DNA from: Advenella mimigardefordensis DPN7
GTDB taxonomy: Bacteria; Pseudomonadota; Gammaproteobacteria; Burkholderiales; Burkholderiaceae_B
Assembly (NCBI RefSeq): GCF_000521505.1
Contig: NZ_CP003915.1
Span: 1,178,001 to 1,242,000 of the forward strand
DNA length: 64,000 nt
Direction: 5' to 3'
Positions 14,023 to 54,807 of the stretch are shown one piece after another. Position numbers and translations under genes: made by a program. Every line of letters starts with the position of its first letter. Within the stretch, counting starts at the first letter, position 1. Below the pieces are notes generated by a model that was given only the letters and a program-made list of their open reading frames with translations, searched no databases and was not told the origin of the DNA.

Positions 14023-14069
14023 TGGAGGCGCAGAGCGGAGTCGAACCGCTCTGGACGGATTTGCAATCC
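14023..14069 (-). other. Prophage attachment site: 3' fragment of tRNA-Cys
   Basis: Read on the minus strand this is an anticodon arm with GCA (TTGCAAA loop), a perfect T arm (AGCGG-TTCGACT-CCGCT), the 3' acceptor strand and CCA. The D arm and 5' acceptor are missing: beyond 14069 the sequence no longer pairs. It adjoins an integrase gene. This is the classic att core left when a phage integrates into a tRNA 3' half. The orientation predicts the complete tRNA-Cys at the far (right) end of the prophage. Confidence 0.85.
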
Positions 14070-14187: not shown

Positions 14188-15249
14188 TTAGCGGGTAGGG
14201 GTGACCTTCTGACCCCGGCGATTACGCAGATATATTTCAGTGGTTGCAAGGCGTTTATGCCCGAGTTGTTTCTGGGCTGCCCGAGGGTCTTGCTCGGCGT
14301 CCGCTTTGTCCGTCCCGGCCTTGGCGCGCAGGTCACGAACCTGAAACTCTACATCACCTATTTTGGCCTTAATTCGGGCTTGCCTGAGCCATTCTGACAC
14401 CGCCCGGGTCGTTACTGGCTTGCCCCATCGGTTCGTAATCAGGTAGGTGGTGACGATTTTGTACTGATTACGGCGCGCCCGGATGCGGTCGATCAATTGC
14501 TGCAGGTCAGGGCTGATTTGGAAGCGCAGTTTTTCTGAGGTCTTGCCTTGGCGGATGTACAGCACCCCATCTCGAATGTCATGATCGGTAATGCCTACCA
14601 CATCGGCGGGGCGCTGGCCGGTCAGATAGGCCAGATCCAGAGCGTCCCGTAATGGAGGGTCAGCAATATCCCATAGCCTCTGATACAGGTCATCCTCGAC
14701 GTATACGTCACGGGATTTCTCAGAGTGCATCTTGACGCCTTGCTTCGGATTGGGAGCGTTCGTTAACCCCATTTCACGGGCGTAATTGAACACAACTGAA
14801 AATGTCGCAATCTCACGATTTGCCCGCGTATGCCCGGTCGTTTTTGTGACTTTGCGTCCTCGTTCCTTCATCCACTGCACGGCTCGCTCTGCCCGCCAGC
14901 GTAGATACTGACGGATATTGACGGCTGCGATTTCTTCCAGCGGCGCATCTTCAAAAAACTCAATCAAAGGAACCCGATCTTTAAGAATGTCGGTTTGATA
15001 CCGGTCGGATTTTGACGGCAACTCTTTCTGAATGAACAGATCAAAGGCATCCTTGAAAGTTATTACCGACTTTGGCGCTGTCTGTTCCAGCTCAGCCCAT
15101 TTCTGGACTGCAAGTAAATAATCAGAGCCGAGAGCGATTTCAACGCGGGGGCTGCCACCCTTGTCATAGTAGTAATAAGTGCCGTACTTGCGTACCCGGA
15201 CCCGCATTCCCTTTGGTAAATTTGTGTATTTTGTCGGTTTTCTTCCCAT
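14188..15249 (-). CDS. int: Phage tyrosine integrase
   Basis: A 353-aa tyrosine recombinase. Residues 1-60 are a basic arm-binding domain ('MGRKPTKYTNLPKG'), followed by a core-binding SAM-like domain and a catalytic domain. Catalytic positions seen are Arg in 'TGQRPADV', the second Arg in 'VRDLRAKAGT' (where the usual His is Arg/Asp-like, as in many phage integrases), His in 'LGHKR' and the nucleophile Tyr in 'TTEIYLR'. It lies directly beside the tRNA-Cys att core, as expected. Confidence 0.95.
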   Translation of the reverse strand: MGRKPTKYTNLPKGMRVRVRKYGTYYYYDKGGSPRVEIALGSDYLLAVQKWAELEQTAPKSVITFKDAFDLFIQKELPSKSDRYQTDILKDRVPLIEFFEDAPLEEIAAVNIRQYLRWRAERAVQWMKERGRKVTKTTGHTRANREIATFSVVFNYAREMGLTNAPNPKQGVKMHSEKSRDVYVEDDLYQRLWDIADPPLRDALDLAYLTGQRPADVVGITDHDIRDGVLYIRQGKTSEKLRFQISPDLQQLIDRIRARRNQYKIVTTYLITNRWGKPVTTRAVSEWLRQARIKAKIGDVEFQVRDLRAKAGTDKADAEQDPRAAQKQLGHKRLATTEIYLRNRRGQKVTPTR

Positions 15250-15573: not shown

Positions 15574-17694
15574 TTAATTCCCCTTCACGCACATGACCTG
15601 TTTCAAGGTATGCAGCACCTCAACCAGATCAGTTTGATTCGCCATAACGGTGTCGATGTCCTTATAGGCTCCAGGGATTTCATCAAGAACTGCGTCATCC
15701 TTGCGACACTCTACGCCTTCCGTTTGCTTGCGCAGGTCGTCAAGTGTGAAGGTCTGGCGGGCCTTGGCTCGGGACATCTGGCGACCTGCGCCGTGGGAGC
15801 ACGAACAATAAGACTGCAATTCGCCCTTGCCGCGTACGATGTAGCTTTTTTGACCCATAGACCCGGGGATGATTCCTAAATCGCCGTCACGGGCGCGAAT
15901 AGCCCCTTTACGGGTCACCCAAAGGTTCTTGCCGAAGTGGTTTTCTTTCTCCACATAGTTGTGGTGACAGTTGATCGCTTCCTGAGTGATCGTGAAATCC
16001 TTGGGGATAGTCAGGCGAAGCGCCGCAATCACCTTCTCCATCATGACCTTACGGTTTTCAAGGGCATAATCCTGCGCCCACTGGACTGCGTCCATGTAGT
16101 CTTGAAAGTCTTCGGTATCTTCTGGGATATAGGCAAGGTCACCGTCAGGCAAGTGAATATGGTATTTCTCCATCGTTTTCTTTGCCTTCGAAATGAAGTG
16201 TGTCCCGATCATGTTACCGATCCCACGAGAACCTGAGTGCAGCATGACCCACACGTCCTGATTCTCGTCGATACAGATTTCAATGAAATGGTTGCCTGAC
16301 CCGAGAGTGCCGAGCTGGGCGCTAATCTTATCGAACAGCTTCGGCATGGAGCCGACGATCTTGTCTGCTATGATGTCCTGAACGCGCTCGTTAGGCATGA
16401 CCGGGAGCCGACGCAGGTTCGCATCACGGTCGCTTTCTCGCTTATGACCGCCGCCAGCGCCCAGAGGAACGTCGCGTTCGATCTGGCGGCGGATCGCCGT
16501 CAAAGAGTCAGGCAGGTCTGACGCTTTCAGGGACAGTCGAACCGCATTCATGCCGCAGTTATGCACGAACACGCCTGCAGCCAGCGCAAAGTTATGATGC
16601 TCTTCCACCTGCAAACAGTAAACGTCAGCACGTTCTTCTATCGGCTGAACCAGCAATACCTTGTGGTTGTATCCGTGCTCCTTCTGTTTATGCCAGCGAA
16701 GAGCTGCTGGATTAGTTAATGTCTCGCCACAATCATCGCATGCGCGTGGTGATGTGTTGAAACTCGTCAGATACAAAGCGCCGCGCTTACCATTGTCCTT
16801 GACTGCATTTGCAAAGTGCTCTGGATTCTCGCGCATATATCGCTCGATGTTTTCCTTCCCAATACGCGCCATTTCCTCGCGTTCTAAAGGATTAGCTGAG
16901 CGGCGTTGAATCCCGGCAAGGCGCATACGCTGAAACACCGGGTCGGCATTATTAAAAGAGTGTCCTACGGTGCGATGATGTCTGGAATGATCGCTCGCTG
17001 TCATTAGCTTCATGTTCGACGGATCATTGTCGAAATGAATATGGCTCTTGTGGTGCACAATATGACCTTCAGGGACTGGGCCGTTGAAATACTCCCACAC
17101 CATGATATGCGTAAGTTTAGAGCTACCCTTTCCATTACTGACCGATTCGTATCCGTCACGGGTTTGCCATCGACGGTAAAGAGGCATAAGGCTGTCATTG
17201 AAAGACAGGTCTTTCGCTTGTTTATACGATCCGTCATTCATCATGAATTCGTGGTCAGGGGTGCAGATTATTTCATCCCCACCAGACACGACCACGCGGA
17301 TCAATTCTGCGTTCGAGCGAGTCTTGACGCAACGTGCCTTGCCAGGGGCGACTTTGCCGTCAGCGTTGATCGAGTAGACCCAAAACGGCTCTGTGCGCGT
17401 CTCAAGCTCGATAAATGTGGCTTGAGTCCCATCAAGTAACGGAACCTTCATGTCCCCACGGAAACATCCGATGTCAACGCCCACGGCTGCCGGTATAACC
17501 GCTTTCTCCGTCGCAATGACCGAACCCACGGTTGAACCCTTGCCAGCGTGAACGTCGGGCATCAGAGCAACGCCATTGCCTGCGATGAAGGGGAGGCGCG
17601 CAAGGTTCTTGGCTTGGGTTAGGGCGGTTTCTTCAATATGGTCTGTCCACGCCTTGATAGGGCGCAGCATGTCGTCATCTTTAATTACTTTCAT
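15574..17694 (-). CDS. rtcB: RtcB RNA ligase interrupted by an intein
   Basis: A 706-aa precursor. Residues 1-76 and 380-706 give a 403-aa RtcB, the normal size. RtcB joins 2',3'-cyclic phosphate and 5'-OH RNA ends using GTP and Mn2+. Seen motifs: 'MPDVHAGKG' and 'GVDIG' before the intein, 'CGMNAVRLSL' after it (the Cys is a metal ligand), 'GSGNHFIEI', 'HSGSRGIG' and 'CSHGAGRQMSR' with the guanylylated His region. The insertion is exactly at the metal-binding Cys. The ATG follows AAAGGAAA. It heads the distal part of the leftward operon, before a terminator. Phage RtcB could repair tRNAs cut by host anticodon nucleases (inference). Confidence 0.95.
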   Translation of the reverse strand: MKVIKDDDMLRPIKAWTDHIEETALTQAKNLARLPFIAGNGVALMPDVHAGKGSTVGSVIATEKAVIPAAVGVDIGCFRGDMKVPLLDGTQATFIELETRTEPFWVYSINADGKVAPGKARCVKTRSNAELIRVVVSGGDEIICTPDHEFMMNDGSYKQAKDLSFNDSLMPLYRRWQTRDGYESVSNGKGSSKLTHIMVWEYFNGPVPEGHIVHHKSHIHFDNDPSNMKLMTASDHSRHHRTVGHSFNNADPVFQRMRLAGIQRRSANPLEREEMARIGKENIERYMRENPEHFANAVKDNGKRGALYLTSFNTSPRACDDCGETLTNPAALRWHKQKEHGYNHKVLLVQPIEERADVYCLQVEEHHNFALAAGVFVHNCGMNAVRLSLKASDLPDSLTAIRRQIERDVPLGAGGGHKRESDRDANLRRLPVMPNERVQDIIADKIVGSMPKLFDKISAQLGTLGSGNHFIEICIDENQDVWVMLHSGSRGIGNMIGTHFISKAKKTMEKYHIHLPDGDLAYIPEDTEDFQDYMDAVQWAQDYALENRKVMMEKVIAALRLTIPKDFTITQEAINCHHNYVEKENHFGKNLWVTRKGAIRARDGDLGIIPGSMGQKSYIVRGKGELQSYCSCSHGAGRQMSRAKARQTFTLDDLRKQTEGVECRKDDAVLDEIPGAYKDIDTVMANQTDLVEVLHTLKQVMCVKGN
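16558..17466 (-). mobile_element. Intein with HNH region inside RtcB
   Basis: 303 aa (residues 77-379 of the precursor). Splice signals are complete: Cys1 ('CFRGDMKVPLLDG', block A), 'CTPDHEF' (block B TxxH), 'DVYCLQVEEHHNF' (block F), then 'GVFVHN' followed by Cys+1 (block G). Between blocks B and F lies an HNH-like region, 'HIVHHKSHIHFDNDPSNMKL', and a C2H2-like finger ('CDDCGETL' plus 'WHKQKEH'). It is therefore probably a splicing-competent intein with its own homing endonuclease. Confidence 0.93.
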
Positions 17695-27774: not shown

Positions 27775-27813
27775 ATATTAATACAAGCACAACTTGTATG
27801 CAAGCTAAACTTG
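27775..27813 (-). promoter_or_regulatory. PL-type early promoter with two repressor operators
   Basis: On the minus strand, TTGCAT (27803-27798) and TAATAT (27780-27775) are 17 bp apart. Two operators of the form CAAG-N5-CTTG (27784-27796 and 27801-27813) cover the spacer and -35. The same operator occurs three times at the repressor gene, so one repressor should control both. Confidence 0.8.
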
Positions 27814-27908
27814 TATAAAAGGGGAAAATAAATGCCGCAATATACAAGCGGCAACTGTCACAAAAAAGCCACATCAATGTGTGGCTGGGGAAGGGATGGG
27901 GAGAGCGG

Positions 27909-27980
27909 ACAGGCGGCGGGACTCGAACCCGCATTTTCCCGTACTGGGCAGGTCTACCGACCGGAGCTGGCTACTACAGT
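27909..27980 (-). other. tRNA-like remnant
   Basis: The minus strand has a perfect T arm (GCGGG-TTCGAGT-CCCGC, 27916-27932) and a D-arm-like stretch (AGCTCCGGTCGGTAGA). A poor 4-bp anticodon stem lies between them and no pairing acceptor ends are found. It is probably a decayed or captured tRNA piece, not a working tRNA. Confidence 0.5.
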
Positions 27981-28069: not shown

Positions 28070-28093
28070 AAAATAAAACCCGCCGGAGCGGGT
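28070..28093 (-). terminator. Terminator behind the TAC operon
   Basis: On the minus strand, ACCCGC-TCCG-GCGGGT is followed by TTTATTTT, 9 bp after the SecB-like gene. It closes the three-gene unit. Confidence 0.8.
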
Positions 28094-28101
28094 GGGGGGG
28101 G

Positions 28102-28647
28102 TTACTTAGTGGCCGAGGCCGATTTTTTGGGTGAAGCGGTCTTTTTTCGAGTTGATTTTTTTTCTGGTTCTTTTGGCTGCGGGTCTTTCTTATTTTTCAG
28201 TGATGGGCGTGCATCCATGAAGTTCACGCTTGGAAGCGTTAAAGGACCAGGTTTCATCCTTGAAGTTATCTCTAAAACTTTTTCTCTTGCAACTGAATAC
28301 AATATAGACGACCCATTTACGACGATCAAATCAATCGATTCTTCTTCAGTCTTTGGTTTGAACGCTGGCAAATTTAATTGTGCGAACTTCCCATAAACAG
28401 AGATTTTTAAGTTATAGGCGATTTGAGGCGATTCTGAACGGGGGATTTCAAACTGAAAAGTTATTAAAACCAAAGTTCTTTTTTCTTCTACAATCAACTC
28501 AAAGTTGTGTTTTACTCGAATCTGGACTCCCATCCATTCAAAAAAATCATTCGGAGAGGGCAGCGCTGCGCCCCCCTCATTTTTATTGCATTGAACGGAA
28601 ACTTCGTCAAAAAAAATCTCGATGGGTTGTATAGGGCTTGTTTGCAT
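28102..28647 (-). CDS. SecB-like chaperone of a toxin-antitoxin-chaperone module
   Basis: 181 aa. The SecB fold signature is readable: a beta-rich N-terminus, 'ISVYGKFAQLNLPAF', 'NGSSILYSVAREKVLEITSR' and 'LTLPSVNF'. A Lys/Pro/Ser-rich tail ('EKKSTRKKTASPKK') is added at the C-terminus. In TAC systems such solitary SecB proteins protect a chaperone-dependent antitoxin. It is the last gene of a tight minus-strand trio (1 bp after the antitoxin gene) with its own terminator. Confidence 0.82.
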   Translation of the reverse strand: MQTSPIQPIEIFFDEVSVQCNKNEGGAALPSPNDFFEWMGVQIRVKHNFELIVEEKRTLVLITFQFEIPRSESPQIAYNLKISVYGKFAQLNLPAFKPKTEEESIDLIVVNGSSILYSVAREKVLEITSRMKPGPLTLPSVNFMDARPSLKNKKDPQPKEPEKKSTRKKTASPKKSASATK

Positions 28648-28648
28648 T

Positions 28649-29092
28649 TCATCCAGCTATAGAGTATTTGCCATTAGAGGTCGATACAAATTGAGTGGAG
28701 AATTCTTGATCATTTGCGGCATTCATTCGATTGGTTTTCAGCGAAGCCAGAAAGCCATCGTCTTGGAGCTTTGCATAATGAGGATCTGATTCGCCTAAAA
28801 AGTCGAAGCTACTGAGATCCTCAGATTTCTCCTTGAGCAGCTCCACTGAAAGAATCCGGTTAAGCTTTCGAGCATACTTCACCATCGTTTTAAGTGACAG
28901 ATTTCTATCGCCAGACAAAAGGCTGGAAATATATGGGGCGGAAACTCCTAGCAACTTAGAAACCTGTGCTTGGTTCAGATTATCTTCCTTCATTATTTGG
29001 TAAATTTTCAGTGAAAATTCATGCTGTGCTCTTGATTCCCAATATGAATCCAGCTTCTCAAATTCGCTGAACAAGTCGGTAATTTTATCCAC
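28649..29092 (-). CDS. HigA-like antitoxin with C-terminal extension
   Basis: 147 aa. The HTH_XRE domain sits at about 32-85 ('NLNQAQVSKLLGVSAPYISS', 'LSGDRNLSLKTMVKYARKLN'). About 60 further residues ('LSSFDFLGESDPHYAKLQDD' onward) have no place in a plain antitoxin and fit a chaperone-addiction (ChAD) tail. Its start overlaps the toxin stop by 8 nt. DNA-binding antitoxins of this type repress their own operon. Confidence 0.8.
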   Translation of the reverse strand: MDKITDLFSEFEKLDSYWESRAQHEFSLKIYQIMKEDNLNQAQVSKLLGVSAPYISSLLSGDRNLSLKTMVKYARKLNRILSVELLKEKSEDLSSFDFLGESDPHYAKLQDDGFLASLKTNRMNAANDQEFSTQFVSTSNGKYSIAG

Positions 29093-29540
29093 GGCGGTAA
29101 TCCTTGTTTTTTACGATATTAAACCTGTGAGTGGTTCTTTCGTAATTCTGTTTAATCTTTATTAATCTATCTTCTTCTGCGTCACTCAACTTATCTTTTC
29201 GCTTTTCCAAAAGCAACGAGCAAATTACTACATGATCTCTATCATAAAAAAAATACAGTCGCAGCTGATCTTTACGCAGACGATAAATGCCGGTGCCGGC
29301 TATAGCCTCATGGCACACTTTGCTGTCTTTCGTATATAGATTTGGGCCATCTTCGTTAAAGGCAATGTGTTGAATCTTCTGGAGTAAATTGCCAGCTCTC
29401 TTTCGATCTGCTTCGATTTGGGCAAGCTCAAGAAATTTGTCGTAAACCTGACAGCAGCCATCTTCCAAAACTCCGTAAACTTTCCAACAGAGCTTGCGCG
29501 GGTCTTTACTTTGCCACAGTTCGACCAGATCCATTCCCAT
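29085..29540 (-). CDS. HigB/RelE-like toxin candidate
   Basis: 151 aa and first gene of the trio, the toxin-first order typical of higBA. 'AIAGTGIYRLRKDQLRLYFF' with 'YDRDHVVICSLLLEKRKDKL' matches the beta-sheet core of RelE/HigB mRNA interferases; the basic residues could be catalytic. It is longer than usual (about 100 aa) because of an N-terminal part ('ELWQSKDPRKLCWKVYGVLE'). Family call by eye, fairly sure from context. Confidence 0.75.
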   Translation of the reverse strand: MGMDLVELWQSKDPRKLCWKVYGVLEDGCCQVYDKFLELAQIEADRKRAGNLLQKIQHIAFNEDGPNLYTKDSKVCHEAIAGTGIYRLRKDQLRLYFFYDRDHVVICSLLLEKRKDKLSDAEEDRLIKIKQNYERTTHRFNIVKNKDYRRG

Positions 29541-29617
29541 TATCGTAACCTATAAGTTAACTTTTGTCTGCGCTTTCTGCATAATTGTTGCATATCATTC
29601 CCAGCCTCTAAAAGGGG

Positions 29618-29806
29618 TTATTCCTGCTCTTCATCCGGCACCACAACAGATTCCGCCAACTTCTGCCGATACCACTTCCTGATTTCGGGATCCGTCACAT
29701 TCTCGCGCAACCATTGATCTAGTTCCATGGGCGTGATAGTAGGCACCGGCTCCTTTTTCAGCAAGCCGTTCTCGTCGTATAGGTGTCTGTACTTCAGATT
29801 TTTCAT
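29618..29806 (-). CDS. Small phage protein
   Basis: 62 aa: 'MKNLKYRHLYDENGLLKKEP' and 'WLRENVTDPEIRKWYRQKL'. It overlaps the upstream gene by ATGA. AATAACCCCTTTTAGAGG at its end recurs after the BamE-like gene. Function unknown. Confidence 0.55.
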   Translation of the reverse strand: MKNLKYRHLYDENGLLKKEPVPTITPMELDQWLRENVTDPEIRKWYRQKLAESVVVPDEEQE

Positions 29807-29973
29807 GGCGCCGGGCGTTCGATTCTATCGGGCAGAACCAGGCGCTCGAAGTCATCCAGCCAGGCCTTCTGGTGACCCTGTTGCGTTTTGTACCATTCCG
29901 CGAACGCCTGCTGCGTTAAATTGGCTCTCATCCAGGCTATTTCTGTCTTAATGTTGGCTTCTTGGTCGGTCAT
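29803..29973 (-). CDS. Small phage protein
   Basis: 56 aa: MTDQEANIKTEIAWMRANLT, then 'QQAFAEWYKTQQGHQKAWLD' and a Pro-rich end. The start at 29973 and the ATGA junction with the next gene support it. Function unknown. Confidence 0.55.
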   Translation of the reverse strand: MTDQEANIKTEIAWMRANLTQQAFAEWYKTQQGHQKAWLDDFERLVLPDRIERPAP

Positions 29974-30023
29974 GATGGTCTAGTAGTATTGGGCTGGGTG
30001 GGGCGGCGGCCCTCTAAAAGGGG

Positions 30024-30401
30024 TTATTGAACTCTCGTAGTCCGGGACTGCATCTGGTGTTTGTTGTAGATTTTCTCGGCTACTTTCCCATCCTTGAACG
30101 ACAGTACAAGTGTTTCAGTTACCGGGTAACCGACTGGGAAAAGACGATATCCGGACCCGCTGGACACCATTGAAGACTTGCCCCATGAGTACGTTTCTTT
30201 ATCCATCACTTGCATTTTTGACATTGGCGGGACTCCAACGAGCGCCAATGCTTCAGCCTGAGACATGCCCTGATGAATTTTTTCGACATTTTGGGAGTTG
30301 AATAGATCGCCTGTCTCTGTTACGGCAGTGCGCGTTGGCATGGAACAGCCAGACGCAAAAATTATCGTTGCTAATAAGACACATTTAAATACTCGATTCA
30401 T
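30024..30401 (-). CDS. BamE/SmpA-like phage lipoprotein
   Basis: 125 aa with a lipoprotein signal (lipobox 'FASGC', Cys19). 'VEKIHQGMSQAEALALVGVP' is the SmpA/OmlA-type opening, followed by 'YSWGKSSMV' and 'LVLSFKDGKVAEKIY'. Host BamE belongs to the outer-membrane assembly machine. A phage copy in the lysogeny region may alter the cell surface or block superinfection (inference). Confidence 0.75.
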   Translation of the reverse strand: MNRVFKCVLLATIIFASGCSMPTRTAVTETGDLFNSQNVEKIHQGMSQAEALALVGVPPMSKMQVMDKETYSWGKSSMVSSGSGYRLFPVGYPVTETLVLSFKDGKVAEKIYNKHQMQSRTTRVQ

Positions 30402-30461: not shown

Positions 30462-30824
30462 CTACGCCGCGCTTTTGCGTTCGTCATCAGGTAATTTCGA
30501 TAGTTTCATCTGAATATAGTCTTCGACATCTTCCAAAATCTCCGGCGGCAGTCTCTCCAAATCGCGCTGCGTAACCCGTTTGAAAGGCCAGTCTGAAAGC
30601 GCACGTTCTACTGTATCTATAACGCTTCTAGTGCCAACTAAATTTTCGGGCGTTGTGTTCAGTGCAGCTGCAATTTTCTGGAATCGGCTCGCACGCGGCG
30701 TCGTATCTCCCTTTTCCCATTGCTGGACGGTTTGGTAACTCACCCCGAGCCTATCCGCAACCTTTTCCAACGAAAGGCCGCTTTTCGTCCGGTAGTGCTT
30801 GATTCGATCGCTAAGTGTACTCAT
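30462..30824 (-). CDS. CI-like phage repressor (XRE, no peptidase domain)
   Basis: 120 aa. The HTH at about 8-62 ('SGLSLEKVADRLGVSYQTVQ', 'QWEKGDTTPRASRFQKIAAA') is followed by a short C-terminal helical part; no LexA-type cleavage domain is present. The ATG at 30824 is 6 nt past a -10 (TTCAAT), which suggests a leaderless message as for lambda cI; an ATG at 30830 is the alternative. It faces the YdaS/Cro-like gene across three operators and is the likely repressor of both early promoters. Confidence 0.85.
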   Translation of the reverse strand: MSTLSDRIKHYRTKSGLSLEKVADRLGVSYQTVQQWEKGDTTPRASRFQKIAAALNTTPENLVGTRSVIDTVERALSDWPFKRVTQRDLERLPPEILEDVEDYIQMKLSKLPDDERKSAA

Positions 30825-30840
30825 AGCCATATTGAACACG

Positions 30841-30892
30841 CAAGAACAACTTGTATCAATACAAGAATGACTTGCTATACAAGAGAGGCTTG
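30841..30892. promoter_or_regulatory. Three tandem repressor operators (OR-type)
   Basis: CAAG-N5-CTTG occurs at 30841-30853, 30862-30874 and 30880-30892, with centres 21 and 18 bp apart. Outer bases tend to ATA...TAT. Two further copies lie at PL. The layout matches a lambda-type OR region between divergent regulators. Confidence 0.85.
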
Positions 30893-30900
30893 TATATAAT
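30872..30900 (+). promoter_or_regulatory. PR-type early promoter
   Basis: TTGCTA (30872-30877) and TATAAT (30895-30900) are 17 bp apart and overlap two operators. The Cro-like ATG at 30907 lies where transcription would start, so this message is probably leaderless. Confidence 0.75.
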
Positions 30901-30906
30901 TTATTC

Positions 30907-31140
30907 ATGAACTCTCAGACCCTCATCATCGAAGCAGTACAGAAATGCGGCGGACCCATTGAAACCGCTCGGAAAACTGGCGCCCGCAATTATCAGACGG
31001 TTCAGCAATGGATAGAGGCTGGACAGGTTCCTGCTTGGGCATGTCCAGCTTTGGAAAGAGAGAGCGGAATATCCCGCCTTCACTTTCGGAAAGATGCTCA
31101 GAAGGTTTGGCCTGAACTGGTCGAAAAGGTAGTCGCGTAG
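30907..31140 (+). CDS. YdaS/Cro-like antirepressor
   Basis: 77 aa: 'LIIEAVQKCGGPIETARKTG', then 'NYQTVQQWIEAGQVPAWACP', the YdaS-type HTH seen in Cro position. It opens the rightward early operon and probably competes with the repressor for the CAAG-N5-CTTG operators. Confidence 0.85.
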   Translation: MNSQTLIIEAVQKCGGPIETARKTGARNYQTVQQWIEAGQVPAWACPALERESGISRLHFRKDAQKVWPELVEKVVA

Positions 31141-41581: not shown

Positions 41582-42064
41582 ATGCCAGGAGTCGCAGGAC
41601 GCTCCGGGCGCAGGCCTAAGCCGGTTGCGAAAAAGCAGCTTGCAGGTAATCCCGGAAAGAGAAAACTGAATACCGAAGAACCCGATTTTGGATTGGTGCG
41701 GTCAATCGATTGCCCGATCTGGATGGGGGAGTTTGGGCGCGAGATGTGGGACACGGTGTGCCCGCTGCTGTGTCGAGAACGGGTGCTGGAAGCGACGGAT
41801 GTGCAGAACCTTGAGGTGTACTGCAATGCGTACGATCAGTTCCGGATGGCTCAGGCAGACGTGCAGAAACACGGCGTTACGGTCTTGGGGGCGTCGGGTA
41901 GTCCAGTAAAGAATCCTGCTTTGACTGCGATCAAAGAGGCGACTGGCACAATGTCGACGTTTGGCGGGATGCTTGGATTAGACCCGGCCAGCCGGCAACG
42001 GTTGCGTGGTCCTACAGACCCCAACAATAACGACAATCCCTTTGCGGCATTGCTCAATGGCTAA
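41582..42064 (+). CDS. Terminase small subunit, P27 family
   Basis: 160 aa. Basic start '[20 protein letters not shown]' and '[13 protein letters not shown]', then '[20 protein letters not shown]' and '[15 protein letters not shown]' typify the P27 family. It recognises the packaging site. It overlaps TerL by 8 nt. Confidence 0.9.
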
Positions 42065-43775
42065 GCACCCAGCCGTCGAACAGGCGCATAAGTTCGCTCG
42101 CGATGTTCTGGCCGGTAAGATTCCGGCTTGCAGGTATGTTGCCCTGGCATGTCAGCGTCATTTCGATGACCTGGACAAATCCAAAGATCCAGAATATCTG
42201 TACTGGTTCGATGAGAAAGAGGCGCAGCGCCGTATAGCTTTGATGGAGCTGTTGCCATTTGTCAAAGGCGAGTGGGGGTTCAAGCGGCAACTGGTGACAT
42301 TGGAGCCATGGCAGAAGTTCGGCATTGCCTGCACCTTTGGGTGGAAGCGCAGATCGGACAATATGCGCCGGTTTCGCGAGAGCTATTGGGAAGTTAACCG
42401 AAAGAATGGGAAAAGTGTGATCGCCGCGGCGGTCGGGATTGTGATGTTCTGCGCTGATGGCGAGTATGGGGCGGAGGTTTATTCTGGCGCCACAACTGAA
42501 AAGCAAGCGTGGGAGGTATTCCGCCCGGCCAAGAGCATGATCAAGCGTACGCCGCTGCTAATGGATGCGGCCGGAATCGAGGTCAATGCCTCGAACATGA
42601 ACCGCCCCAGCGATGGCAGCCGTTTTGAGCCGATCATTGGGAATCCCGGCGATGGAGCCAGCCCGTCATGCTCAATTGTGGACGAGTACCACGAACACGA
42701 TAGTGATGATCTCTATACGACCATGCTTACGGGTATGGGGGCGCGGAAACAGCCACTGATGTTCATCATCACGACCGCAGGCGCGAATATTGAAGGGCCG
42801 TGTTACGACAAACGGCGAGAAGTGGTGGAGATGCTGGAAGGTACTGTCCCGAATGACGAGTTATTTGGCTGGATCTGGACGATCGACGAGAGCGACGACT
42901 GGCGAGACCCAGCAGTTCTTGCGAAGGCAAACCCGAATTTGGGCGTATCTGTGTACGAGAACTATCTTATCAGTCAGCAGCAAAGAGCCATCAAACAGGC
43001 GCGGTTTACGAACACGTTCAAAACCAAACATCTTGGAGTGTGGGTAACCGCGAAATCGGGATTCTTTAATGTGTCCGATTGGGAGTCGTTGAAAGACACG
43101 ACCCTGACGCTGGAGCAATTCGATAGTCAGCCTTGTGTGCTGGGTTTTGACTTGGCGCGCAAACTGGATATGAACAGCATGGCGCGCCTGTTCTGGCGGG
43201 ATATTGACGGGAAGAGACATTACTACAGTGTGGCGCCTAAGTTCTGGGTGCCAGAAGATACGATTTTTGATAACGAAAATCAGCGAATGGCTGAACGGTT
43301 CCAGAAATGGGTAAATACCGGGCATTTGACGCCGACTGATGGCGCGGAAGTGGATTACCGGGACATCCTTGAGGAAGCCAAAGAAGCGAACCGGTTGAAT
43401 CCAGTTCAGGTTTCCCCGATTGACCCACACGGCGCGACGAACTTGTCGCATCAATTGGATGATGAGGGCCTGGCGCCAGTCACCATTACACAGAATTACA
43501 CGAATTTATCCGACCCGATGAAGGAGCTGGAGGCGGCTATTGCCTCTGGCCGGTTCCATCACGACGGAAATCCGATCATGACCTGGTGTATTGGGAATGT
43601 GATCGGTAAGTTTCTGCCGGGAAACGACGATGTTGTGCGTCCGATCAAGCAGGGCAATGACAACAAGATTGACGGAGCCGTGGCATTAATTATGGCTGTT
43701 GGCCAAATTATGACCGCGCAAGAAGACGATAACGAATCATTTATGGAAGCGATTCGAAACCCGCTACATAGATAA
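42057..43775 (+). CDS. Terminase large subunit
   Basis: 572 aa from the ATG at 42057. The ATPase shows '[20 protein letters not shown]' (Walker A variant) and '[20 protein letters not shown]' (Walker B with Glu). The C-terminal nuclease holds '[13 protein letters not shown]' and '[13 protein letters not shown]'. It cuts and pumps phage DNA into proheads. Confidence 0.95.
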
Positions 43776-46142: not shown

Positions 46143-48004
46143 GTACGCCCAGCATGGGCGTACTCCTGCGGGTGCGAGTCCCGCCGCGAGTTGGTCACAA
46201 CGAGCGAAGTGAAGCGCAACTGCGTGAGGGTGACCGAGCGTGGGAAGGAAGCGTGAAGCGTAAATCGCGAGCCGATGGACAAGAACTGCATAGAAGGCGC
46301 TGCCAAGCAGGGCGAGCGGGCCATAAACCGCAAAGCTCTCGTGACCAAGGCGAAGTGGCGTAGATGCAGCGGTTGTGCGATGAAGGAGTGCGTTCTTATC
46401 TGGGGAAGCCTCGCCTTGATCCTGAAAGGGTAACGGTGTCGAACCGGAGCGAGGACTCAGCAGAGGTCATAGTAGTCGTGGTAGCCGAATCGGGGAGGTT
46501 CGGAGTCGAAGCGACGAAGGACCGAACGAGAAGGAGTATTACTCGACATGTCGATACAACTTGTAGTGCCTCAGATGACTGCCCCAGCGGAGCGGACGGG
46601 TGTAGTTGGCGGTGAAGCCGCCGGTGATCCTGTCAGCGAGGAAACAAGGAGTCCGCGATATGGCAATGAGGATACGGGGTCAGCGCTGCTGCAAGCGGCG
46701 CTGACAAGAGAGAACCTGCAAGCCGCGTTCAAGCGGGTGCGAGCCAATAAAGGAGCAGCCGGGGTGGATGGTCTGGACATTGATCAGACTGCCCACCACC
46801 TGGTGAGCGCCTGGCCTGCCATCCGGGAGGCGTTGCTGACAGGTAAGTACCGGCCCAGCCCGGTACGACGGGTAATGATACCCAAGCCTGACGGTAGCCA
46901 GCGCGAGCTGGGTATTCCGACGGTAACGGATCGCCTGATCCAGCAAGCACTACTGCAAGTGCTGCAACCCATCCTTGACCCCACCTTCAGCGAACACAGC
47001 TACGGCTTCAGACCGGGCAGGCGGGCGCATGATGCGGTGCTTGCCGCTCAGTCGTATGTGCAGTCCGGCCGCCGTATCGTGGTGGACGTGGATCTGGAGA
47101 AGTTCTTCGACCGGGTCAACCACGACATCCTGATTAATCGCTTACAGAAACGCATTGCTGATGCCGGCGTGATCCGGCTGATCCGTGCGTATCTGAATAG
47201 CGGCATTATGGATAGCGGTGTGGTGATCGAGCGGCACGAGGGCACGCCGCAAGGCGGACCGCTCTCGCCGTTGCTGGCCAACGTGATGCTCGATGAGGTG
47301 GACAAGGAGCTGGAACGCAGGGGTCATTGCTTCGTTCGCTACGCTGACGATTGCAACGTCTACGTTCGCAGTCGCCGTGCCGGTGAACGGGTAATGAACC
47401 TGCTGCGACAGTTATACGCTAGACTACGCCTGAAGGTCAATGAAACCAAAAGCGCGGTTGCCAGTGTATTTACGGGTCGCAAATTCCTGGGTTACAGCTT
47501 CTGGATGGCCCCCAAGGGCGTGGTCAAGCGCCGAGTGGCGACCAAGGCCGTGATGGCGTTCAAGCAACGCGTGCGACAATTGACGCGCCGCTTGGGCGGA
47601 CGCAGTATGCAGGATGTGGTGGACAGGTTGCGTGCCTACATGCTGGGTTGGAAGGGCTACTTCCGGCTGGCGCAATCCCAAAAACTCTGGCAAACACTGG
47701 AGGAATGGATACGTCACCGGTTACGGGCAATCCAGCTCAAACAGTGGAAACGCGGTAAAACGATGTTCCGTGAGCTACGCACTCTAGGTGCTAGTGTGAC
47801 AGTAGCACACCGCGTGGCGGCCAACAGCCGTCGCTGGTGGCGCAACAGTGGCAAGCTGCTCAATAGTGTGCTGACGATCGCGTGGTTCGATAACCTGGGT
47901 CTGCCTCGTCTCTCATGACCTCAACTTCTCGAACCGCCCGGTGCGGACCCGCATGCCGGGTGGTGTGGCAGGGGTGCAGTCTGATGACTGCCCCCTATGC
48001 CGAT
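46143..48004 (+). mobile_element. Group II intron, copy 1 (1862 bp)
   Basis: The 5' end GTACGCCC fits the GUGYG-type start. The 3' part has domain V-like 'CCGCCCGGTGCGGACC' folding with 'GCCGGGTGGTG' (about 47931-47970), then a domain VI hairpin with the branch-point bulge CTA and the end CCGAT. The element lies directly downstream of a terminator stem and T-run, the habit of bacterial class C introns. The ends are inferred from comparison with the identical copy at 52946-54807. It sits between the protease and capsid genes without breaking either. Confidence 0.92.
46548..47918 (+). CDS. ltrA: Group II intron reverse transcriptase/maturase
   Basis: 456 aa. RT blocks: 'SYGFRPGRRAHDAV' (about 151-164), 'VDLEKFFDRVNHDIL', 'GTPQGGPLSPLLAN' (232-245) and catalytic YADD at 265-268. 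The maturase X domain follows ('YMLGWKGYFRLAQSQKLWQT'). There is no C-terminal HNH endonuclease domain, as expected for class C introns, which retrohome into terminators and ssDNA. Confidence 0.95.
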   Translation: MSIQLVVPQMTAPAERTGVVGGEAAGDPVSEETRSPRYGNEDTGSALLQAALTRENLQAAFKRVRANKGAAGVDGLDIDQTAHHLVSAWPAIREALLTGKYRPSPVRRVMIPKPDGSQRELGIPTVTDRLIQQALLQVLQPILDPTFSEHSYGFRPGRRAHDAVLAAQSYVQSGRRIVVDVDLEKFFDRVNHDILINRLQKRIADAGVIRLIRAYLNSGIMDSGVVIERHEGTPQGGPLSPLLANVMLDEVDKELERRGHCFVRYADDCNVYVRSRRAGERVMNLLRQLYARLRLKVNETKSAVASVFTGRKFLGYSFWMAPKGVVKRRVATKAVMAFKQRVRQLTRRLGGRSMQDVVDRLRAYMLGWKGYFRLAQSQKLWQTLEEWIRHRLRAIQLKQWKRGKTMFRELRTLGASVTVAHRVAANSRRWWRNSGKLLNSVLTIAWFDNLGLPRLS

Positions 48005-52945: not shown

Positions 52946-54807
52946 GTACGCCCAGCATGGGCGTACTCCTGCGGGTGCGAGTCCCGCCGCGAGTTGGTCA
53001 CAACGAGCGAAGTGAAGCGCAACTGCGTGAGGGTGACCGAGCGTGGGAAGGAAGCGTGAAGCGTAAATCGCGAGCCGATGGACAAGAACTGCATAGAAGG
53101 CGCTGCCAAGCAGGGCGAGCGGGCCATAAACCGCAAAGCTCTCGTGACCAAGGCGAAGTGGCGTAGATGCAGCGGTTGTGCGATGAAGGAGTGCGTTCTT
53201 ATCTGGGGAAGCCTCGCCTTGATCCTGAAAGGGTAACGGTGTCGAACCGGAGCGAGGACTCAGCAGAGGTCATAGTAGTCGTGGTAGCCGAATCGGGGAG
53301 GTTCGGAGTCGAAGCGACGAAGGACCGAACGAGAAGGAGTATTACTCGACATGTCGATACAACTTGTAGTGCCTCAGATGACTGCCCCAGCGGAGCGGAC
53401 GGGTGTAGTTGGCGGTGAAGCCGCCGGTGATCCTGTCAGCGAGGAAACAAGGAGTCCGCGATATGGCAATGAGGATACGGGGTCAGCGCTGCTGCAAGCG
53501 GCGCTGACAAGAGAGAACCTGCAAGCCGCGTTCAAGCGGGTGCGAGCCAATAAAGGAGCAGCCGGGGTGGATGGTCTGGACATTGATCAGACTGCCCACC
53601 ACCTGGTGAGCGCCTGGCCTGCCATCCGGGAGGCGTTGCTGACAGGTAAGTACCGGCCCAGCCCGGTACGACGGGTAATGATACCCAAGCCTGACGGTAG
53701 CCAGCGCGAGCTGGGTATTCCGACGGTAACGGATCGCCTGATCCAGCAAGCACTACTGCAAGTGCTGCAACCCATCCTTGACCCCACCTTCAGCGAACAC
53801 AGCTACGGCTTCAGACCGGGCAGGCGGGCGCATGATGCGGTGCTTGCCGCTCAGTCGTATGTGCAGTCCGGCCGCCGTATCGTGGTGGACGTGGATCTGG
53901 AGAAGTTCTTCGACCGGGTCAACCACGACATCCTGATTAATCGCTTACAGAAACGCATTGCTGATGCCGGCGTGATCCGGCTGATCCGTGCGTATCTGAA
54001 TAGCGGCATTATGGATAGCGGTGTGGTGATCGAGCGGCACGAGGGCACGCCGCAAGGCGGACCGCTCTCGCCGTTGCTGGCCAACGTGATGCTCGATGAG
54101 GTGGACAAGGAGCTGGAACGCAGGGGTCATTGCTTCGTTCGCTACGCTGACGATTGCAACGTCTACGTTCGCAGTCGCCGTGCCGGTGAACGGGTAATGA
54201 ACCTGCTGCGACAGTTATACGCTAGACTACGCCTGAAGGTCAATGAAACCAAAAGCGCGGTTGCCAGTGTATTTACGGGTCGCAAATTCCTGGGTTACAG
54301 CTTCTGGATGGCCCCCAAGGGCGTGGTCAAGCGCCGAGTGGCGACCAAGGCCGTGATGGCGTTCAAGCAACGCGTGCGACAATTGACGCGCCGCTTGGGC
54401 GGACGCAGTATGCAGGATGTGGTGGACAGGTTGCGTGCCTACATGCTGGGTTGGAAGGGCTACTTCCGGCTGGCGCAATCCCAAAAACTCTGGCAAACAC
54501 TGGAGGAATGGATACGTCACCGGTTACGGGCAATCCAGCTCAAACAGTGGAAACGCGGTAAAACGATGTTCCGTGAGCTACGCACTCTAGGTGCTAGTGT
54601 GACAGTAGCACACCGCGTGGCGGCCAACAGCCGTCGCTGGTGGCGCAACAGTGGCAAGCTGCTCAATAGTGTGCTGACGATCGCGTGGTTCGATAACCTG
54701 GGTCTGCCTCGTCTCTCATGACCTCAACTTCTCGAACCGCCCGGTGCGGACCCGCATGCCGGGTGGTGTGGCAGGGGTGCAGTCTGATGACTGCCCCCTA
54801 TGCCGAT
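52946..54807 (+). mobile_element. Group II intron, copy 2 (1862 bp)
   Basis: Same length and, as far as read, the same sequence as copy 1, including the 5' noncoding part, the RT gene and domains V-VI. Flanking sequences differ, so the ends are sharp. Inserted after a different terminator, between the tail terminator and tail tube genes. Identity suggests very recent movement within this phage or gene conversion. Confidence 0.93.
53351..54721 (+). CDS. ltrA: Group II intron reverse transcriptase/maturase (second copy)
   Basis: 456 aa, identical in sequence to the protein of copy 1, with YADD at 265-268, intact X domain and no HNH domain. There is no stop or frameshift, so both introns should be active. 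Confidence 0.95.
   Translation: MSIQLVVPQMTAPAERTGVVGGEAAGDPVSEETRSPRYGNEDTGSALLQAALTRENLQAAFKRVRANKGAAGVDGLDIDQTAHHLVSAWPAIREALLTGKYRPSPVRRVMIPKPDGSQRELGIPTVTDRLIQQALLQVLQPILDPTFSEHSYGFRPGRRAHDAVLAAQSYVQSGRRIVVDVDLEKFFDRVNHDILINRLQKRIADAGVIRLIRAYLNSGIMDSGVVIERHEGTPQGGPLSPLLANVMLDEVDKELERRGHCFVRYADDCNVYVRSRRAGERVMNLLRQLYARLRLKVNETKSAVASVFTGRKFLGYSFWMAPKGVVKRRVATKAVMAFKQRVRQLTRRLGGRSMQDVVDRLRAYMLGWKGYFRLAQSQKLWQTLEEWIRHRLRAIQLKQWKRGKTMFRELRTLGASVTVAHRVAANSRRWWRNSGKLLNSVLTIAWFDNLGLPRLS

Follow-up and report, generated by a model that had tools for sequence, protein, structure and literature searches.

The locus consists of three genes on the minus strand of a prophage, within a 64,000-nucleotide stretch of the Advenella mimigardefordensis DPN7 genome that was analyzed as a whole and is called the window hereafter. 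An earlier note, made from the sequence, had described them as three tightly packed genes, and open reading frames confirm this arrangement: a toxin gene (29085..29540, 151 aa), an XRE antitoxin gene with a GTG start (28649..29092, 147 aa), and a SecB-like chaperone gene (28102..28647, 181 aa). Toxin and antitoxin genes overlap by 8 nt, antitoxin and chaperone genes are separated by 1 nt, and the chaperone motifs quoted in the note are present in the sequence. The operon had also been credited with its own terminator. A hairpin with a T-rich tail does follow the chaperone stop (28078..28093, minus strand); because terminator-like sites are as frequent in shuffled sequences (seven in the region versus a shuffle mean of 6.0, i.e., no excess), this terminator is a prediction only. 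The GC content of the three genes (40.6%) is below that of the prophage part in the window (52.4%) and of the window's first 14 kb (54.7%), which suggests a recent acquisition of the operon. By computational analysis of gene order, folds, antitoxin extension, C-terminal Ala-Gly, palindrome, and location, 28102-29540 (minus strand) is almost certainly a HigBAC-type toxin–antitoxin–chaperone (TAC) module.

The AF2 model of the toxin (pLDDT 85.0, pTM 0.83) matched solved HigB toxins in Foldseek, which bears out the proposed HigB/RelE-like fold. The best match was HigB of S. pneumoniae (6af4; E 3.1e-4, query TM 0.62); HigB1, the toxin of the M. tuberculosis TAC, was found with lower confidence (7nbu; E 0.016). 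On the sequence side, the Pfam family Gp49 (PF05973) was detected at E 0.01 or better in 11/15 aligned toxin relatives, with the window toxin itself matching weakly and below the cut-off (E 0.011). In this toxin alignment, the row of locus L045 begins in frame without a start codon. A profile of five toxins found no convincing match among PDB sequences, the best hit (E 0.035) being an unrelated protein. The long N-terminus, previously regarded as unusual, contributes the initial strands to the HigB-like fold in the AF2 model, and its interpretation as an odd extra domain was dropped. Judging from the modeled fold, we infer that the toxin cleaves mRNA.

For the chaperone, the sequence alone remained below the cut-off against Pfam SecB (E 0.12) and retrieved nothing from the PDB. 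Profile searches reach more distant relatives than single sequences, and a profile of seven chaperone relatives matched SecB of E. coli (E 7.3e-5) and H. influenzae (E 0.0024). Foldseek searches with the AF2 model (pLDDT 77.4, pTM 0.70) returned SecB (1ozb, E 1.9e-6) and Rv1957 with its ChAD peptide (5mtw, E 5.1e-6); the SecB alignments had TM values of 0.45–0.52 on the query and 0.55–0.63 on the target, with an rmsd of 5–7 Å. Profile and Foldseek matches thus agree with a SecB-like chaperone, as the note had proposed. Two uncharacterized streptococcal structures (2o2a and 2hng) matched the model about equally (E about 1e-4 or better), which shows that this fold also occurs outside SecB. In the profile alignment, Lys81 of the window chaperone occupies the position of Glu77 of E. 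coli SecB, a residue that serves SecA binding. The C-terminal tail (codons 144–181; 28105..28218, minus strand) is rich in Lys with a net charge of +9, and residues 159–181 were modeled with a pLDDT below 50. This tail is less unusual than first thought, as a net charge of +4 or more was counted in 12/24 TAC-linked chaperones versus 0/17 export-type SecBs, with tail boundaries that differ between the two counts. Being present in only 12/24, a basic tail was rejected as a defining TAC feature.

The antitoxin comprises an XRE core (HTH_3, E 6.4e-11) and a ChAD-like C-terminal extension of 62 residues (codons 86–147; 28652..28837, minus strand) that ends in Ala-Gly; the note had estimated about 60 extra residues. 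Extensions past the XRE core measured 44–85 residues in 18 SecB-linked antitoxins (window, 13 loci, and L069–L072), versus 1–20 residues in 28 SecB-less antitoxins. This pattern was first noticed in an alignment (A16), and only L069–L097 and 12 viral loci represent later data. The toxin-based sample L069–L097 (30 retained loci, the window locus among them, out of more matches) was collected without using the chaperone to find loci; on its own, it contains four SecB-linked antitoxins, all extended by 49–65 residues, and 25 SecB-less antitoxins, all at 1–20. In another twelve viral SecB-linked antitoxins, the extension measures 42–57 residues. Two phage loci, L139 and L174, are exceptions, with extensions of 68 and 57 residues but without a recognized SecB; both keep toxin and palindrome, with Glu and Ile as the respective last antitoxin residues. 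Third ORFs are located behind toxin and extended antitoxin in both loci (L139 12688-13038; L174 6085-6501) and gave no convincing Pfam match. These loci may use another chaperone, a different antitoxin helper, or a SecB too divergent for recognition. A further exception is L046, whose 120-aa XRE protein came with no SecB match.

A C-terminal Ala or Gly is found in 29 of the 30 SecB-linked antitoxins (17/18 plus 12/12), versus 8/28 SecB-less ones (Fisher P 8e-6 for 17/18 versus 8/28, in a test that ignores relatedness). At 40% identity, the 30 sequences form nine clusters, eight of which lack a non-Ala/Gly member; L072 is SecB-linked, yet its antitoxin ends in Asn. For M. tuberculosis HigA1, a ClpX degron (C-terminal Val-Ala) is described that lies within the ChAD (PMC8165232). 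The near-universal Ala/Gly ends resemble ClpX degrons, which would extend the HigA1 finding, as a prediction, to this broad TAC family.

Several decisions define these counts. The SecB-like genes of L044, L045, and L047 were recognized by eye and gene order, that of L044 giving no Pfam match. The counts exclude P0006 (no chaperone known on the contig), L046 (a 120-aa XRE protein, no SecB match), L143 (its toxin is short and its XRE gene is not adjacent to the operator), and antitoxins of the MqsA type. Three loci with a missing or broken toxin (L052, L077, and L082) are among the 28 SecB-less antitoxins and were excluded from the palindrome test (25 loci). The following loci were counted once: L001/L013/L043/L068, L002/L008, L003/L009, L004/L007, L006/L012, L015/L050, L128/L220, L144/L219, L189/L226, and L216/L223, the last pair because their coding regions read alike.

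Upstream of the toxin gene, we identified the palindrome TTAACTTATAGGTTAC (29545..29560, minus strand; positions −20 through −5 relative to the toxin start) as a putative antitoxin operator. It matches the family palindrome at 14/16 bases, a value reached in 0/200 shuffles. Palindromes near TTAACCTATAGGTTAA (at least 12/16 bases) precede the toxin in 16/17 TACs, scored with a consensus that was derived from the same loci; L011 was excluded from scoring, since its contig begins at the toxin. The palindrome is located at −17 to −24 in 15 of the 16 palindrome-bearing TACs and at −154 of a too-short toxin ORF in L045, and L070 is a TAC without it. At the same threshold, 5/25 SecB-less loci also scored, mostly with another center such as TTAACATATATGTTAA, and we discarded the idea that only SecB-linked systems have the palindrome. 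Scanning viral contigs for exact copies of TTAACYTATAGGTTAA gave at least 120 stretches. Among the matches listed, seven are directly followed by a complete TAC (L126, L128, L144, L168, L189, L206, and L216) and two by toxin and extended antitoxin (L139 and L174). The palindrome is also present, at 14–15/16 bases, in five TACs that were retrieved through similarity of the toxin (L221, L222, L224, L225, and L227). The palindrome therefore offers a simple handle for finding further TACs.

A tRNA-Cys integration repeat of the prophage (at least 40 nt long) occurs at 14023 and again beyond the window, at 73936 in window coordinates. The prophage contains an integrase gene (14188-15249) as well as terminase, portal, and tape-measure genes. 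The large terminase (42006-43775, plus strand) is 78.6% identical to those of Vibrio anguillarum phages, despite the Burkholderiales host. An intein that includes an HNH endonuclease splits the prophage's RtcB RNA ligase gene (15574-17694, minus strand; Pfam: RtcB 6.5e-125, Intein_splicing 2.7e-24, HNH_3 3.9e-14). The phage structural region contains two ORFs for group II intron-type reverse transcriptases/maturases (46548-47918 and 53351-54721, plus strand), both of 456 aa and identical over the 60 residues compared. Outside the window, close to the prophage's right end, an Abi_2 protein (PF07751, E 4.1e-56) is encoded at 69294-70226 (minus strand; L098 7294-8226), possibly a second anti-phage gene of the prophage.

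Upstream of the TAC, a CI-like repressor gene (30462..30908, minus strand, 148 aa; PHROG transcriptional regulator E 1.8e-18, HTH_3 E 6.1e-16) and a Cro-like regulator gene (30907..31140, plus strand, 77 aa; PHROG transcriptional repressor E 7.7e-5) diverge over three repressor operators. These operators form an OR-like cluster (30838..30895; single sites 30838-30856, 30859-30877, and 30877-30895), and two more form an OL-like cluster (27781..27816; 27781-27799 and 27798-27816). The operator pattern ATACAAG-N5-CTTGTAT has eight matches in the window, five of them in the two clusters, and 0/100 shuffles reached eight; a variant with a 6-nt spacer was discarded, its matches being at chance level. 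Both clusters were thus found, above shuffles, and the TAC does lie in the lysogeny region between them, as the note had stated. It is located downstream of the CI-like repressor gene, codirectional with it and 921 bp away, between OL and OR, the slot that rexAB occupies in phage lambda. Between repressor and TAC, a BamE-like lipoprotein is encoded (30024-30401, minus strand; Pfam BamE E 3.8e-4, below the cut-off), possibly another lysogenic conversion gene. An exact direct repeat of 18 nt (29605-29622 and 30011-30028) delimits a segment with two small ORFs (29605..30028); its two copies are the only ones in the genome at up to one mismatch, and it possibly marks a cargo-exchange boundary upstream of the TAC. 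A stretch resembling a tRNA 3' half (about 27900-27960, minus strand) adjoins OL; ARAGORN reported no tRNA in the window.

This placement recurs. A same-strand repressor gene no more than 1 kb upstream was found in 10/16 distinct phage-borne TACs (window, L006, L007, L011, L126, L128, L144, L168, L189, L206, L216, L221, L222, L224, L225, and L227), namely the window and nine viral contigs. By PHROGs, eight of the nine viral repressors match phrog_4 (E 2e-35 or better) and that of L206 matches phrog_12107 (E 1.5e-13). No same-strand repressor was found within 1 kb upstream in L006, L126, L189, and L224, L007 has an integrase gene directly upstream of the TAC, and L011 cannot be judged. As six of the nine repressor-linked viral TACs belong to one related toxin clade, independent lineages in the rex slot number about five. 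In a repressor-based comparison of the immunity region, 11/268 genomes matched. Open-licence literature on TACs with phages or prophages covered defense TACs and prophage hotspots and yielded no repressor-linked TAC; likewise, no open-licence publication joining SecB and rexAB was found. While this kind of TAC is already known, its recurrent placement in the rex slot is the newer part.

Close relatives of the three proteins are rare. In a large protein collection, the chaperone had two matches besides itself and the antitoxin one, and the toxin found only itself; the chaperone occurs in 4/268 genomes of the family, its own included. Searches of 50,697 phage records gave no match for the chaperones of the window and L006 or for the L206 toxin, and four weak partial matches for the L222 toxin; the L006 toxin had no match in plasmids. 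The order toxin–XRE–SecB was found in Castellaniella, a Burkholderiales MAG, viral contigs, and other genomes. In the MAG, the TAC adjoins a large ORF that reads by eye as restriction–modification-like. MqsRA-type TACs with a similar chaperone are present on a Cupriavidus plasmid (L005) and in L010 and L014.

The mechanism that we infer would combine toxicity, chaperone dependence, proteolysis, a phage trigger, and expression in the lysogen. The SecB-like chaperone would fold the antitoxin and hide its C-terminal ClpX-type degron, and the chaperoned antitoxin would neutralize the HigB-fold RNase; with or without the toxin, the antitoxin would also repress the operon by acting on the palindrome that precedes the toxin. 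With its location between OL and OR on the side of the repressor, the TAC could be expressed while the lytic genes are off, and position and strand point to such expression in the lysogen. Upon infection, an abundant unfolded structural protein of the incoming phage would occupy the chaperone. With the antitoxin then degraded, the freed toxin would cleave ribosome-bound mRNA and abort the infection. Models for such triggering come from other TACs: in CmdTAC, the T4 capsid protein is described to outcompete the antitoxin for CmdC (PMC11618068), MqsRAC is reported to protect against T2 (PMC9519451), and the lambda major tail protein is described to disrupt HigA-HigC and thereby trigger HigBAC (PMC11980606). 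By analogy to these systems, an anti-phage function of the window TAC appears likely on balance. The whole explanation, a HigBAC-type TAC that serves as immunity-region cargo of a temperate phage and aborts superinfection, is in our view quite probable.

The overlapping toxin and antitoxin genes and the self-regulating palindrome would also suit an ordinary type II addiction module, which harms cells that lose the prophage and so stabilizes it without any particular defense. In such a module, however, the chaperone would be superfluous; moreover, the three TACs of other toxin/chaperone lineages cited above are anti-phage according to these sources, and the repressor-adjacent placement recurs, so that we consider pure addiction unlikely. 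Position could be read differently: between OL and OR and next to the repressor and Cro-like genes, the TAC might guard the prophage's own decision, with the chaperone sensing early structural proteins of the prophage itself and host translation being stopped upon untimely induction or export stress. SecB-type chaperones are described to bind unfolded clients generally (PMC6377645), which fits this idea, but such a guard would lower the phage's own burst, and no relative examined shows wiring of this kind, which makes it very improbable. Marginally less credible still is a decayed or silent remnant. The two group II intron reverse transcriptases in the structural region mean that the prophage may be defective, and close toxin relatives are very rare, as described above; yet each of the three ORFs is intact, and the coding sequence has diverged without loss of the extension, the Ala-Gly end, or the palindrome.

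Beyond the preferred reading of the TAC as anti-phage cargo, we tentatively consider, with somewhat more doubt than confidence, that TACs serve temperate phages as a permanent immunity cassette, which several phage lineages placed independently in the rex slot and which shares one conserved palindromic operator. The lysogen would sense structural proteins of rivals, with a chaperone tuned such that the prophage's own capsid and tail proteins do not trigger it. The basic tail, present in part of the family and absent from export SecB, might anchor those chaperones to ribosomes or RNA, where they would meet nascent antitoxin and phage protein. If this were true, TACs would join rexAB-like genes as phage-versus-phage weapons in the lysogenic immunity region, and self/non-self discrimination would become directly testable: one could ask what structural proteins bind to the chaperone, and what keeps those of the resident prophage from triggering it upon induction.

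Compared to known systems, the window TAC resembles lambda rexAB in position, while proteins and mechanism are not known to be related. The MqsRA-SecB TACs (L005, L010, and L014) have a chaperone of the window's SecB-like clade with the NGxSxLYG motif, but MqsR-type and MqsA-type partners. CmdTAC, described as anti-phage, likewise comprises three genes including a SecB-like chaperone; its toxin, however, is an mRNA ADP-ribosyltransferase, and its antitoxin belongs to another family (PMC11618068, PMC9519451). The Rv1955-Rv1956-Rv1957 system (HigB1-HigA1-SecB(TA)) is matched by our models, the toxin by 7nbu and the chaperone by 5mtw. Inspection by eye revealed no counterpart of HigA1's Trp-containing ChAD motif in the tail of the window antitoxin, which has no Trp. 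According to the published descriptions, HigA1 resembles the window antitoxin in its C-terminal extension with hydrophobic or small last residues, whereas the mycobacterial TAC is chromosomal and the window TAC lies in a prophage immunity region (PMC5105189, PMC6377645, PMC8165232). By its described gene set, rather than by sequence or position, the window TAC can be likened to HigBAC of E. coli C496 (Mets et al. 2024, via PMC11980606, PMC12671086), which, like the window, combines a HigB-family toxin, an XRE antitoxin, and a SecB-like chaperone.
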